This document shows, in pieces, positions 17,526-31,326 of a stretch of DNA of 39,832 nt. Origin of the DNA: Nitrospira sp. (GTDB taxonomy: Bacteria; Nitrospirota; Nitrospiria; Nitrospirales; Nitrospiraceae); contig JARFPM010000017.1 in NCBI GenBank assembly GCA_030444405.1, forward strand, positions 1 through 39,832, in the 5' to 3' direction. The notes below the pieces were generated by a model. That model did no database searches and was not told the DNA's origin. It saw only the letters and a program-made list of their open reading frames with translations. Numbering within the stretch: position 1 is the stretch's first letter; each line of letters starts with the position of its first letter. Both the position numbers and the translations under genes were made by a program.

Positions 17526-17972
17526 TCATAGATGCAACACCTTGATCGGCGACACCACCGCCGCCGGATTGTTCCTCCACAGCGACTCATCTGCATCCAC
17601 ATAGAGTTCGACTTCGTTGCCGTCGGGGTCGCGGAGATACAGGCTCTGGCTCACCGTGTGATCGCTCATACCGTCGATCGGGATTCCTGCCTGCTCCAAC
17701 TCTCGCTTGGCCTGGCGCAGCTCATCAAGGCTGTCGCCGACCTTGATTCCGATATGGTACAGCCCGCGCCGTCTCCCAGCCGGAGGCCCCGGCGCATCGC
17801 CAACCTGGATCAGTAACAGCTCATGATGGGTTCGCCCGGAAGTCAGCGCAGCGGCCGCCCCGTTGAAGATCCGCCCCACTTCGTTGAATCCCAACAGGTC
17901 TCGGTAAAATCTGAGCGACCGTTCCAAATCCTTCACATAAAAGACGACATGACCAAGGCAGTGGGCTTTCAT
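17526..17972 (-). CDS. VOC-superfamily protein (glyoxalase/dioxygenase-like)
   Basis: A 148-residue vicinal-oxygen-chelate protein with two beta-alpha-beta3 modules. The first begins LGHVVFYVKDLERSLRFYRDLLGF and the second LYHIGIKVGD. Candidate metal ligands are the histidines in GHVV and YHIG and the glutamate in NEVELYVD, so the site looks complete, consistent with a metal-dependent dioxygenase or glyoxalase-like enzyme. The substrate is unknown. ATG 17972 has GAGGTGA at good distance; a GTG three codons earlier overlaps the preceding stop. It is the last gene of the pirin/FrnE operon. Confidence 0.88.
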   Translation of the reverse strand: MKAHCLGHVVFYVKDLERSLRFYRDLLGFNEVGRIFNGAAAALTSGRTHHELLLIQVGDAPGPPAGRRRGLYHIGIKVGDSLDELRQAKRELEQAGIPIDGMSDHTVSQSLYLRDPDGNEVELYVDADESLWRNNPAAVVSPIKVLHL

Positions 17973-17977
17973 TTGAC

Positions 17978-18391
17978 TCACCTCTTGTTGGGAATAGACT
18001 GCATGAGCAATGCTCTGACCGCCGCGTGCTCCAGCACGACATCGGGGCTTCGTTGCAGCGCGTTGTAATACTGTCGACCAAATCCCTCCCCCGCCTCCGT
18101 CGGCGTCAACAGGGTCCGCACAGATGAGAGCAGGACTGAAACTTCCTCGTGCGTTGAGGACTCTTTCTCATCGCTGAACTCATCGAGCTTGACCATCAGT
18201 TGGGACAGCGGACGCAACCAGGTGAACCAGGCATCGTTCAACACCAGCTGCAAAAATGCTCCATTGGATGAGATGCGTCCGTGCACACGCTCATAGGACA
18301 CCCGTTCGTCGTCCAACAAGGCTTTGTGCAGACGAAGCAGCCCCTTAGAAATATTATCCAGAGAGGCGTCTCTACTTCTTCGCTCCCGCAT
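17978..18391 (-). CDS. Conserved-looking protein of unknown function
   Basis: A 137-residue soluble, probably all-helical protein with no signal peptide. Segments such as GLLRLHKALLDDERVSYE, LNDAWFTWLRPLSQLMV and VLLSSVRTLLTPTEAG look like helices with conserved tryptophans. I do not recognise a family. The frame has normal codon use for the window and is packed between the broken SnoaL-like gene (33 bases upstream) and the VOC gene (five-base gap), so it is surely a real gene in this operon. Confidence 0.7.
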   Translation of the reverse strand: MRERRSRDASLDNISKGLLRLHKALLDDERVSYERVHGRISSNGAFLQLVLNDAWFTWLRPLSQLMVKLDEFSDEKESSTHEEVSVLLSSVRTLLTPTEAGEGFGRQYYNALQRSPDVVLEHAAVRALLMQSIPNKR

Positions 18392-18424: not shown

Positions 18425-18988
18425 TTACTGGGCCAACCCCAACTGCTTCATGAATGTCTGGTTGTCCCAGAACAGCCACTCCTCGGCCATCGTGGTTCCC
18501 TCCCAACGGCCGATCGTGACCATTTAGAGCTTGAAGGCTTTGCCCGTCGGCGCGATCGTCTTGCCACCACCGATAGGCATTGGTCTTGTGAAGGTTCCGG
18601 TCATGGTTCCCATGACGGCGGTCCAGTTCCCTGAGGCGATGCGGATCGGATGGTCAATAATTTTGTGATCGGGCGCAAAGACAAACATCGGTTTGAGGGC
18701 TTCGATGTGTGGATCCAACCCCTTGGTTGTACTGCCGTCGGGATAGTGGACGACGATATCCTTGGCGTGGCTTCTGCCAAGTTGGTCCCACTTCTGACTG
18801 CTGTACACGTTGAAATCGAGGTCGTCAAAATTGGCCAGATTGGCGGTTTCAACTTGCCGCTGGCGCTGAACCTCGGCAAGTTGCTGTTTCATCAGCTCAA
18901 TATCGGCGCTTGACTGTGCCCCACTAAAGCCCGGAAAACCAACGAGGAGAACCACGCCTAGCGCAGCAACATACAACCATTCCTTCAT
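18425..18988 (-). pseudogene. Secreted NTF2/SnoaL-like protein interrupted by an in-frame TAA
   Basis: The ATG at 18988, after AAAGGAG, opens an exported protein with a Sec signal (MKEWLYVAALGVVLLVGFPG, ending near GAQS). The mature part, with HYPDGSTTKGLDPHIEALK and GTMTGTFTRPMP, is typical of SnoaL-like proteins. The frame stops at TAA 18524-18526 after GKAFKL. The same frame then continues for 32 codons (MVTIGRWEGTTMAEEWLFWD, then NQTFMKQLGLAQ) to a second TAA at 18425. That continuation is the expected last beta-strands and helix of the fold. The truncated product would be 154 residues against about 187. It may be a young pseudogene, a read-through gene, a two-piece gene (TAAATG allows restart), or a base-calling error. 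Confidence 0.75.
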
Positions 18989-19043: not shown

Positions 19044-19412
19044 TTACTTCTTTGCAGATTTGTAACGGAAACGTTCGTGAGCGATCTTGCCGTTGTTCCA
19101 TCTTGTCACCACCACCTGTTCCATATGGACCGGCTGCCTCGTCATCGCGATGAAGTCGAGGCTACATCCATTAGAACGTGACGTTGTCACCCACGGCTGA
19201 GGCGGTTACATTGCATCCCTTCCACTCTTTCACGCCGCTCATGAACTGTTTTTCCCGCTCGATGTTCGCGGCAAGGCCCACCGTCGGCGGATTGGCGTTA
19301 TCCAGCATCACCGTGTCCTTGTCGTAGAATTCATTCATCGCCTCGATGATTTTGCCCTGCCGGATGTGATCGAAGAGATCGTTCAACCGCGTTGTAGATT
19401 CGCCGTACTCAT
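19044..19412 (-). pseudogene. Small NTF2/SnoaL-like gene with two compensating frameshifts
   Basis: ATG 19412 overlaps the stop of the VOC gene (ATGA) and has AAAAGGAG nine bases upstream, so it is the genuine start. It reads MSTANLQRG and hits a TGA. The body continues in another frame from about 19386: LNDLFDHIRQGKI, MNEFYDKDTVMLDN and GDNVTF, then TAA at 19171. The tail continues back in the original frame: DFIAMTRQPVHMEQVV, TRWNNGKIAHERFRYKSAKK, ending at TAA 19044. Start and final stop are in register (369 bases), so one lost base near 19386-19405 and one gained base near 19172 explain the sequence. Intact, it would be about 122 residues with an NTF2-like fold. No full-length product can be made without frameshifting. 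Confidence 0.75.
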
Positions 19413-19843
19413 GGTCGTTTCTCCTTTTGAGGCTTGGAGGTCAATGTAATCCCGGTTTTCTGCACTTCCTGATAAGGGAGAAGCCACACTAACGATTCAT
19501 CGCTGAGGTCCCCAACTTGGATGCGATTCCCCCAAGGATCGCGAAAGTCGCAGCGAAAGTCCGGATGGAGCTTCAATTTATACTTCTTCGTCAGCTTGTT
19601 GCGGACTTCTTGTATCTGCTTCGCATCGCGGACCATGAGCCCGAAGTGCTTCGTGCGGTCAGGCTGCAATTCCTCCACTTCAAAAATCGCCATAAACTGA
19701 TGTTCGCCGAGCTTACACCAGGCTGCTCCTTCCCCACCACGCAGCATTTTCAAGCCGAAGACATCCTGATAAAACTTGACTGCTTTCTTGGCGTCGGTGA
19801 CCTCGATCACGACGTGGTTACATCCGTAGACTTGAACGGCCAT
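19409..19843 (-). CDS. VOC-superfamily protein
   Basis: A 144-residue vicinal-oxygen-chelate protein. The first module is CNHVVIEVTDAKKAVKFYQD, the second starts at KHFGLMVRD, and the C-terminal strand reads GNRIQVGDL. The usual metal glutamate of the last strand (N-x-x-E) is replaced by glutamine here, so metal catalysis is doubtful and a binding role is possible. It starts at ATG 19843, overlapping the FrnE-like stop by one base (TAATG), and ends overlapping the start of the frameshifted NTF2-like gene by four bases, a tight translationally coupled arrangement. Confidence 0.85.
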   Translation of the reverse strand: MAVQVYGCNHVVIEVTDAKKAVKFYQDVFGLKMLRGGEGAAWCKLGEHQFMAIFEVEELQPDRTKHFGLMVRDAKQIQEVRNKLTKKYKLKLHPDFRCDFRDPWGNRIQVGDLSDESLVWLLPYQEVQKTGITLTSKPQKEKRP

Positions 19844-20508
19844 TACACACCTGCCTTTCCCACTGACAAGCCGGCTTCACTCTGCCTGAAGGCAACTAAC
19901 AACTGCTCTGGCGGTTGCGCTCCAGAAAGTGCAGACGTCCTGTTGAATACAAAATACGGAACACCTCGTATGCCCACACGATGGCCAGCTGCTTCCTCTG
20001 CCTTCACAGCTTCTATCCCCCCATCGCCCGCCAGAAAGGTTTCGATCGCTGCTCGATCAAGCCCCGCATGCGCAGCAGCTTGGGACAATGTCTCGATGTT
20101 CCCGATATCTCCTCCCTCCAGGAAATACTGGCGAAAGAGCATCTCGACCATCTCATCCTGTTTATCATGATGCCCCGCCAACCAGATGAGGCGATGGGCG
20201 GCGAATGTGTTCGGCGTGCGAGCAATGCGCTCAAAATCGAAATGGATGCCTTCTTCGGTACCTGCTGTCGAGACTTGATCATAGATCGCTTGAGCAGCAT
20301 CAGGGCTGCCAAACTTCGCGTCAAGGTACTGTCGTCGATCCATCCCGTTGCGCGGCATGGTCGGATTCAGTTGAAATGGCCGCCATCGGATGTTCACAGG
20401 CACCCCATCCCATGTCTTGAGTGCCCGTTCCAGCCGCCGCTTGCCCACATAGCACCAGGGACAGATCACATCGGAATAGACTTCGACTGCCAGCGCTCGG
20501 TCATTCAT
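19843..20508 (-). CDS. FrnE-like DsbA-family oxidoreductase
   Basis: A 221-residue thioredoxin-fold protein of the 2-hydroxychromene-2-carboxylate isomerase/FrnE branch. The active site C16-P-W-C19 lies in YSDVICPWCYVGKRRLERAL, the cis-proline loop is GVPYFVFN, and the inserted helical domain contains NTFAAHRLIWLA. There is no signal peptide, so it acts in the cytoplasm, as FrnE does. Family members are dithiol oxidoreductases or isomerases linked to oxidative-stress resistance. The ATG overlaps the pirin stop (ATGA), placing it in the operon with pirin and VOC proteins. Confidence 0.92.
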   Translation of the reverse strand: MNDRALAVEVYSDVICPWCYVGKRRLERALKTWDGVPVNIRWRPFQLNPTMPRNGMDRRQYLDAKFGSPDAAQAIYDQVSTAGTEEGIHFDFERIARTPNTFAAHRLIWLAGHHDKQDEMVEMLFRQYFLEGGDIGNIETLSQAAAHAGLDRAAIETFLAGDGGIEAVKAEEAAGHRVGIRGVPYFVFNRTSALSGAQPPEQLLVAFRQSEAGLSVGKAGV

Positions 20509-21389
20509 GACAGGTGGCCCATCTTTCCCGCTTGATAATCGTTCACGGCTTGTACGAGTTCGGCTTTGGTATTCATGACGAACGGACCGTACCGCGCAAT
20601 CGGCTCATCGATAGGCTCACCACTCATGAGCAAAATCCGACTATCTGACTTGGCCTCAATCGTCACGAGTGATCCATTCCGCCTGCACACAAACAATTCC
20701 GCCTCTCCGGCGTCACGTGAACCATTCGCCGAAACCAGGCCTTGTACGACGAAGATGGATGTATTGTGCCCGTCCGGCAGATTCAACTCCACACGGCGGC
20801 CGGCAACTAGCTCCAGATCATAGAGTTCGATCGGTGTCACCGTATGGGCCGGCCCTTTCTGTCCCTGAGCCGTTCCAGCAATCAGACGCAGTCGGCCTGC
20901 GCCACCTTCGAGTTCGACCTTTGGAATATCGGCGTTCAGGATCGTCTGGTAACGGGGCGCCGACATCTTCTGTGCACGCGGCAGATTGACCCACAGCTGA
21001 ATCGCATGCAATGTGCCGCCGCTCTTCGCCCAATTCTTCTCATGCATTTCTTCATGCACGACCCCGGAGGCTGCGGTCATCCATTGCACATCGCCCGGGC
21101 CGATCACGCCGGCATTTCCGGCGGAATCTCGATGGGCCACGATGCCCCGATAGATGATGGTCACGGTTTCAAAACCGCGGTGCGGATGCTCACCGACGCC
21201 CCGCGGGTGATCGGTCGGTTCAAAATAGTGTGGCCCGGCATAGTCCAGCATGAGAAACGGACTGACCTCTCGATCGAGGTCGTTGCTCGGGAAAAGGTTC
21301 CGCACAGGAAACCCATCTCCGACCATATGGGCCGATCCTGGTTGATAGATCCCTGTTACTTCTTTGACAACAGCCGTCCCGGTAGCCAT
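20505..21389 (-). CDS. Pirin family protein
   Basis: A 294-residue bicupin. The N-terminal cupin holds the family signature: GVGEHPHRGFETVTIIYRG supplies the H-x-H pair, and VVHEEMHE supplies the further histidine and glutamate, so the iron site looks intact. Bacterial pirins act as quercetinase-like dioxygenases or as redox-sensitive regulators; which applies here cannot be told. ATG 21389 (MATGTAV) follows GGAGG; an upstream in-frame GTG lies within that ribosome site. The gene follows the NmrA-like gene by 11 bases and overlaps the FrnE-like gene by four. Confidence 0.93.
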   Translation of the reverse strand: MATGTAVVKEVTGIYQPGSAHMVGDGFPVRNLFPSNDLDREVSPFLMLDYAGPHYFEPTDHPRGVGEHPHRGFETVTIIYRGIVAHRDSAGNAGVIGPGDVQWMTAASGVVHEEMHEKNWAKSGGTLHAIQLWVNLPRAQKMSAPRYQTILNADIPKVELEGGAGRLRLIAGTAQGQKGPAHTVTPIELYDLELVAGRRVELNLPDGHNTSIFVVQGLVSANGSRDAGEAELFVCRRNGSLVTIEAKSDSRILLMSGEPIDEPIARYGPFVMNTKAELVQAVNDYQAGKMGHLS

Positions 21390-21400
21390 GTGGTCCTCCT

Positions 21401-22258
21401 TCACACCATCGTTCGTAGCGCGTCATCCAGCGTCACCGTACCCCGCACGAGCTTGTCAGGGTGCTCATACCCGATCGCGCCTGTTGAGAAAGCGGTGTAC
21501 ATTTCTTCGAATAATCTTGCCGCTTCATCGGAAAACCCAAACGATTTGAATGTCGGAACAACGGCACTCAGGGGCGCATGTTGGGCCTTCACCGGTTTGC
21601 CCAAGATCTGACCAAGTGCCGAAGCAACTTGATCCGGGCTGTACTCTTCAGGGCCCGCCATTTCCACGATCTGCTTACCATAGCCACCAATCATCAATTG
21701 TTCCGCACCAACCCTGCCGATGTCCTTGGTCGAAATCATGGGAATCTTCGCCGGTGGCGCAATGAATGTCGGAAGAACACCCTGAGCCTTGGCCGCACCA
21801 ATGACCGGCGCCCAGTTGTCCATGAAATAACAGGGACGGAGAATGGACAGACGCTTGGCCACACAGCCCAACGCATGTTCTCCATAACTCGCGGCTCGAA
21901 TCGGACCGGTCCCACCGTGCAGATGCCCCCCGACCGACGACAGCAACACAACATGTTCGACTCCGCTCTTCTGAACGGCTTCCGCCGCGCGATCCATCCG
22001 CGCTCGTTGATCCGCCAACCACGCCTCAGCCCCGTAATTCGGTGGCACCAACAAATAGACCCCTTTCGCTCCTTCGAATGCCTTGGTCAACGCAGGCACA
22101 TCGTCAAGCGACGCCACGGCCATGTCCGCCCCTTTCGCTTTCCACGCGGTCCCCTTGTCGGCCGAGCGGACGATCACCCGCACCGGCTGCTTCTTGCTCA
22201 GCAATGTCTCCACAACTGCAGACCCTGTATTCCCGGTAGCCCCTACGACAACAAACAT
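21401..22258 (-). CDS. NmrA-like NAD(P)-binding protein (atypical SDR)
   Basis: A 285-residue Rossmann-fold protein beginning MFVVVGATGNTGSAVVE, with the glycine motif GATGNTG at 6-12 and RVIVRSADKG after beta-2 for NADP contact. LLSSVGGHLHGG and LRPCYFMDNWAPV are typical of the NmrA/quinone-oxidoreductase-2-like group, which reduce quinones or sense NADPH. The YxxxK pair is not obvious. The ATG at 22258 follows AGGAGG. It is the first gene of the operon that runs down to 17526, with a sigma-54-type site 130 bases upstream. It differs clearly from the other NmrA-like gene at 2948-3898, so this is not a recent duplication. Confidence 0.88.
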   Translation of the reverse strand: MFVVVGATGNTGSAVVETLLSKKQPVRVIVRSADKGTAWKAKGADMAVASLDDVPALTKAFEGAKGVYLLVPPNYGAEAWLADQRARMDRAAEAVQKSGVEHVVLLSSVGGHLHGGTGPIRAASYGEHALGCVAKRLSILRPCYFMDNWAPVIGAAKAQGVLPTFIAPPAKIPMISTKDIGRVGAEQLMIGGYGKQIVEMAGPEEYSPDQVASALGQILGKPVKAQHAPLSAVVPTFKSFGFSDEAARLFEEMYTAFSTGAIGYEHPDKLVRGTVTLDDALRTMV

Positions 22259-30823: not shown

Positions 30824-30846
30824 CGGAACAACTTTCCCCGGGCCCC

Positions 30847-31179
30847 TTGCATGTTTGGGCCTGGCATTCGGAATGGATTGCCAAGAGGGAGGCCATGTTG
30901 CGGCTTGCGGCGGAGATTCCAAACGTCTTGATTATTCCCATGCCGGATTACAGACCCAAATATTCCAAGATTGATCCCGAAGAGGGGATCAATCCCAACC
31001 ATCCCAATTTGACAATTTGGGGAAGCAAAATCGAGGTGGCGTCGTTCATCGATATTCATTGTCACTATGCCAATTTCGCGCTGCAAATGGTCCGAGCTGG
31101 GACGAATTGCCTCACTATAGCGTTTTGTCATGACATCCATGAGGACGCGATGCTCAGCGTACAGGACCTGGATGTATAA
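30847..31179 (+). CDS. Uncharacterised protein, start uncertain
   Basis: An open frame of up to 110 codons ending at TAA 31179. The sequence is protein-like and distinctive: VLIIPMPDYRPKYSKIDPEE, FIDIHCHYANFALQMVRAGT, then CLTIAFCHDIHEDAML, with paired histidines and cysteines that could bind metal. I do not recognise the family. Starts in this frame are TTG 30847 or ATG 30895, the latter with GGGAGG very close upstream. Oddly, the best ribosome site (AGGAG before ATG 30816, overlapping the lipoprotein stop) opens a different frame that ends at 30974. The true start may therefore be hidden by a frameshift, or the gene may be a truncated remnant. The opposite-strand frame over this region is judged a shadow. 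Confidence 0.5.
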   Translation: MHVWAWHSEWIAKREAMLRLAAEIPNVLIIPMPDYRPKYSKIDPEEGINPNHPNLTIWGSKIEVASFIDIHCHYANFALQMVRAGTNCLTIAFCHDIHEDAMLSVQDLDV

Positions 31180-31182
31180 CAG

Positions 31183-31326
31183 ATGCACCATATCATTGAG
31201 ATCTTCAGGACTGACCGGAAAGACATGGGCATTGAAATGCCGAGAGACGGGAAAACCGTGCGCCTGACCGGCACGCAAATTCCAGCGAATCACGAGATCG
31301 AACGAGTGAACCCACTGCCGGCATAG
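31183..31326 (+). CDS. Small uncharacterised protein (47 aa)
   Basis: ATG 31183 to TAG 31326, three bases after the previous stop: MHHIIEIFRTDRKDMGIEMP followed by a basic and polar tail ending NPLPA. The peptide is protein-like and fits snugly between neighbours, but no ribosome site is clear and no family is recognised. It might be coupled to, or originally part of, the preceding reading frame. Confidence 0.4.
   Translation: MHHIIEIFRTDRKDMGIEMPRDGKTVRLTGTQIPANHEIERVNPLPA

Follow-up and report, generated by a model that had tools for sequence, protein, structure and literature searches.

An in-frame stop codon in a SnoaL-like gene beside a frameshifted related gene in a Nitrospira draft genome

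Results

Gene content of the locus

The window, the whole stretch of 39,832 nucleotides that was analysed, is contig C86 of a Nitrospira sp. draft genome (G000; 3.46 Mb in 170 contigs). It contains a co-directional run of genes in the order NmrA, pirin, DsbA, glyoxalase, a slot for SnoaL-like genes, orf137 and a second glyoxalase (Table 1). The slot is occupied by two genes, B and A. Gene A starts at an ATG (position 18988, minus strand) with AAAGGAG upstream. Its premature TAA is followed directly by an ATG (18523-18521), from which 32 codons, the Met counted, remain open to a second TAA at 18427-18425. Both the stop and the open codons behind it had been described in a first-pass annotation made from the letters alone, and both are present in the assembled minus-strand sequence. 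Gene A is 82-88% identical to the intact copies of two relatives, G012 and G043.

A further A-family gene, intact and 53-55% identical, is located elsewhere in the same draft (L160:17918-18550, on G000:C146), beside a gene named as sulfatase-like by eye. Among the 79 genomes of the genus, only G000 has two A-family matches.

Table 1. Coordinates of the features at the locus and of gene A remnants in three relatives
Feature	Position	Strand	Remarks
NmrA-family protein	21401..22258	-	
Pirin	20505..21404	-	
DsbA-family oxidoreductase	19843..20508	-	
Glyoxalase-family gene upstream of the SnoaL slot	19409..19843	-	in 61 of 79 genomes of the genus
Gene B	19044..19412	-	second SnoaL-like gene; broken by a net loss of one base close to the start and a net gain of one base mid-gene
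Gene A	18425..18988	-	SnoaL-like protein, predicted to be exported; interrupted by an in-frame TAA after 154 codons, with 32 codons beyond it
Gene A N-terminal hydrophobic segment	18914..18988	-	putative export signal (by eye and hydropathy)
Premature TAA of gene A	18526-18524	-	column of high variability; the 33 homologues show 12 residue types and no stop here
Gene A tail	18428..18523	-	32 codons; remainder of strand 5, plus strand 6 and the final helix; 97% identity with G043
orf137	17978..18391	-	conserved gene that follows the slot; without a Pfam match at E 0.01
Second glyoxalase-family gene	17526..17981	-	end of the conserved run
3' remnant of A after intact B (G001)	L051:4096-4224		
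3' remnant of A after intact B (G061)	L018:1498-1584		
3' remnant of A after intact B (G093)	L059:1947-1976		

Family, fold and predicted export of the gene A product

The part of gene A before the stop matched the Pfam family PF07366 with 37.6 bits, against a gathering cut-off of 28.4 bits, and the intact copies of G012 and G043 scored 62.1 and 58.9 bits, respectively. No NCBIfam family matched above its cut-off, the single sub-threshold match being TIGR02096. The sequence search of the PDB returned IdmH as the sole match, and a weak one (E 0.0006). An AlphaFold2 model of the intact G043 protein, built from 32 homologues (mean pLDDT 88), had as its fold neighbours the putative cyclases 3i0y and 3kkg, IdmH, KstA15 and SnoaL2. 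The model superposed on these five solved SnoaL-like proteins with Z scores of 16.9-18.7 and rmsd values of 1.8-2.6 (Foldseek, VIA-align). The NTF2/SnoaL fold is thus assigned through the model of the intact G043 relative and not through a model of the truncated product.

A strongly hydrophobic N-terminal segment was present in 32 of the 33 A-family sequences and a lipobox pattern in 16, in a hydropathy scan that begins at the upstream stop and possibly includes untranslated codons. Intact gene A most likely encodes an exported protein of the SnoaL fold, export being predicted from hydropathy. The protein resembles the SnoaL-like polyketide cyclases (PF07366) in its profile score and its NTF2/cystatin-like fold; however, it differs from them by the putative N-terminal export signal, accompanied in many relatives by a lipobox. 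Such a signal is not known from 3i0y, 3kkg, IdmH, KstA15 or SnoaL2. No polyketide synthase was found among the window proteins scanned by Pfam. The neighbouring genes suggest a role for A in the handling of reactive small molecules. Literature search listings returned nothing linking Nitrospira with SnoaL, or Nitrospira with pirin and glyoxalase together.

The codons behind the stop

Gene A was compared with 33 homologous loci from Nitrospira and other phyla, a set that left out the matches consisting of a 3' piece only (L044, its copy L051, and L045). In all 33 the stop column is occupied by a residue and the tail follows, and none ends naturally at GKAFKL. The Met after the stop column is conserved in 31 of the 33, and no homologue has a stop before that Met. 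In the G043 model the cut falls at residue 155, within the strand 151-163, so that a product ending there is predicted to lack most of strand 5, strand 6 (166-174) and the helix 176-182. Nine of the 30 invariant columns of the alignment A1 lie in the lost tail; this alignment holds 32 sequences and was made without L032 and L033, which carry stops, and without the fragments L044 and L045. With all 33 loci reading on past this position, the tail is, by homology, part of the gene A protein and the true end of the SnoaL/NTF2 fold, as the first-pass annotation had proposed.

The stop itself was peculiar to the source genome. An internal stop was found in one of 11 near-full A-family matches among the 79 genomes of the genus and in one of 27 matches among 395 genomes of the phylum, in both cases the gene A of G000. 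Compared with the intact orthologues, the TAA is a disabling lesion in G000 only. At this position the codon of the closest relatives is GAC, AAC or AAT, each two base changes from TAA, so a single mutation would have required an intermediate codon that was not seen.

Two distant homologues from other drafts, of Candidatus Eisenbacteria (L032:1260-1802) and Variovorax (L033:3090-3548), have one in-frame TAG each in frames that are otherwise conserved. Single stops in drafts of the A family (these 2 of 33) are therefore not unique to the window. All three stops lie at variable columns where some homologue has Gln, which, with n = 3 and no control family counted, proves nothing.

Constraint on gene A and age of the stop

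Between gene A and its G043 counterpart, pN was 0.023 before the stop and 0.013 after it, and pS was 0.71 and 0.43, respectively. These values, like those for gene B below, are plain counts from short genes whose synonymous sites are close to saturation. Relative to four relatives, the gene A of G000 had two private residues of 112 before the stop and none of 32 in the tail, with 21 private synonymous codons before the stop and two in the tail. The private residues of the intact controls, before the stop and in the tail, numbered three and one in G043, 11 and two in G012, and two and one in G022. By these counts, relaxed selection was not found in gene A.

If the tail had been free for the whole private branch, the synonymous rate measured ahead of the stop (21 in approximately 74 sites) would lead one to expect approximately 22 replacements among its 77 replacement sites; the observed number was zero. 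By hand arithmetic on this rate, the tail would have been free of constraint for less than approximately 14% of the private branch, whereas the tail's own synonymous count (two in approximately 19 sites) bounds it only to approximately 37%. With gene A otherwise fully constrained, the stop is, on these counts, either recent or an assembly or consensus error. As relaxed selection was not detected, gene A is classed as a recent nonsense allele or an error and not as an aged pseudogene.

Lesions in gene B

In gene B, the one-base gain follows the one-base loss by approximately 200 bases, after which the first frame is restored. The genus contains 29 close copies (≥70% identity) without a lesion, of which 28 are full-length and one is at a contig edge; broken copies were found in G000 and G012. 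The damage to a second, adjacent and related gene, reported in the first-pass annotation, is thus real relative to the intact copies. Compared as profiles, A and B show weak similarity only (E 1.6e-4, probability 51%).

Against 14 intact copies, the 3' segment of the G000 gene B (40 codons) showed pN of 0.18-0.24 and pN/pS of 0.24-0.46. The control, 28 pairs among eight of these intact copies, whose mutual distances are on average smaller than their distances from G000, gave pN of 0.01-0.12 and pN/pS of 0.02-0.22. Protein change in the 5' segment was not raised by the same pN/pS counts. Gene B therefore combines the two features expected of a pseudogene, a disabling lesion and raised protein change, the latter in the 3' segment only; because the 5' segment was not raised, the case for decay rests on the frame breaks and the 40-codon segment. 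Frame changes together with raised protein change in the 3' segment are hard to explain as an assembly artefact. The decay of B looks older than the stop in A, and we infer that B was lost before A.

The slot in other Nitrospira genomes

Among the 61 genomes with the first glyoxalase gene, the slot behind it holds B without a lesion and without an intact A beside it in 29 (one of them G091, where the contig ends inside B). The slot contains a broken B together with A in G000 and only A in G043; in the remaining 30 genomes neither gene lies close by. Two of these 30 (G004 and G067) are contig ends with almost no downstream sequence. G044, where the B-like match was weak (36%), was scored as lacking B, and a second glyoxalase match in G079 was not included.

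A further B-A pair was found in G012, on one contig beside a partial glyoxalase copy. Here A is intact and B has lost its start codon and contains in-frame stops and a 64-nt insert. Two further copies of the insert (L046:4935-5005 = G012:C6:76934-77004) occur in G012, 88-90% alike over approximately 59 nt, which makes it a small interspersed repeat. Three other relatives (G001, G061 and G093) have an intact B followed by only 3' pieces of A, all with the same starting point in the gene. The sequence following these pieces matches that of G012, at 86% in G001 (piece and flank together) and at 94-95% in G061 and G093 (flank). A single B-A arrangement would thus have been shared by these genomes, losing B in the lineage of G012 and A, by one shared deletion, in the others. 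Pieces of A were not found in five of the eight B-carrying relatives tested (G010, G075, G052, G074 and G016), so the arrangement need not be old across the genus. In G092, both genes are present approximately 24 kb apart. Intact A and intact B side by side were not found in the genomes of the genus surveyed.

The pattern resembles gene displacement at one chromosomal slot, with A and B alternating between glyoxalase and orf137 and one or both broken where they occur together. Unlike a clear case of displacement by a related gene, however, the two profiles are only weakly alike, and the same job for both proteins is putative.

Discussion

The stop in gene A could be a base-calling, assembly or strain-consensus error of the draft, in which case the living cells would have an intact gene. 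The division of the genome into 170 contigs, the tight constraint on the whole frame including the tail, where no other lesion was found, and the restriction of the stop to a single one of the 11 near-full matches in the genus are all as expected of an error. Gene B, on the other hand, adjoins it with lesions and raised protein change in its 3' segment that an error would not produce, and these point to genuine decay of the locus. Nor would a one-base error in the codons of the nearest relatives yield TAA, which makes the single-base error a less simple explanation without deciding against it. On balance we regard an error as unlikely, although it retains appreciable weight.

Alternatively, the stop may be tolerated, either because translation restarts at the TAAATG junction or because a permissive column allows readthrough, with a working protein in one or two pieces and selection still acting on the tail. 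The TAA is indeed directly followed by ATG, none of the 32 tail residues is private, and the stop column accepts many residues. However, 31 of 33 homologues share the Met of this ATG without having a stop in front of it, and the junction is thus a by-product. By eye, there is no Shine-Dalgarno sequence in the 30 bases before the internal ATG, in contrast to the real start. The two-piece protein by restart that the first-pass annotation had raised is further disfavoured by the position of the cut, inside strand 5, and by the putative export signal, which is on the first piece and absent from the second; a restart peptide of 32 residues lacking such a signal could hardly join an exported first piece. 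UAA is usually the least leaky bacterial stop, and no other match in the 79 genomes of the genus or the 395 of the phylum shares it. We consider toleration of the stop very improbable, and the more specific claim, that the exported SnoaL-like protein is still made through coupled restart or readthrough and that the pieces or the product work, marginally more so. If true, bypass of the stop would explain an undecayed tail beside a dead sister gene, and the protein would be an unusual, naturally split or recoded member of the NTF2 fold. A third possibility, that the product of 154 residues is a working SnoaL-like protein of naturally reduced length, is just as improbable as toleration of the stop: the sequence ahead of the TAA does pass the Pfam SnoaL threshold (37.6 against 28.4 bits), but none of the 33 homologues ends there and nine of the 30 invariant columns would be lost with the tail.

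We therefore favour, as the likely though not certain explanation, ordinary repeated gene loss at one slot, in which gene A was inactivated very recently by a single nonsense codon after an earlier frameshift break of the adjoining gene B. B would have been broken first, by frameshifts; a nonsense codon, presumably present in the living cell, would then have hit A very recently, and the truncated product would probably be unstable and dead. The loss of A might be tolerated through redundancy with B or with the intact A paralogue on contig C146, and that paralogue may make it tolerable. If the slot keeps one working gene, however, losing A after B is not predicted by slot redundancy alone. The absence of other decay in A, compatible with a very recent loss, would equally be expected from an assembly or consensus error.

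Genes A and B are like other bacterial nonsense and frameshift pseudogenes in having a single stop or small indels relative to intact orthologues and independent losses in relatives; A is unlike them so far in showing no relaxed selection apart from the stop. The lesions look like a known kind of event, pseudogenisation, and not a new mechanism. Gene loss of this kind would make the locus a small and well-resolved case, in which two related genes share a slot, sister lineages have lost opposite members of the pair, and one lineage has just had its second gene hit. Draft annotation may call gene A a shorter protein or two genes.

Other genes of the window

The first-pass annotation had also described every flanking gene as intact. 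This held for the immediate neighbours of A and B and failed further along the contig, where a third broken gene was noted. When the gene places of the window were paired with stretches of three relatives, 24 of 27 were open, as counted by hand with antisense shadow rows left out and genes lacking a partner in the relatives' stretches outside the count. A changed genetic code was set aside, these 24 places being open under table 11. The third broken gene (30832-31323) belongs to the CO dehydrogenase beta / acetyl-CoA synthase epsilon family (PF02552, CO_dh). Its 5' part is missing, the first 65 residues of the G043 ORF having no counterpart, and the remaining frame contains an in-frame TAG.
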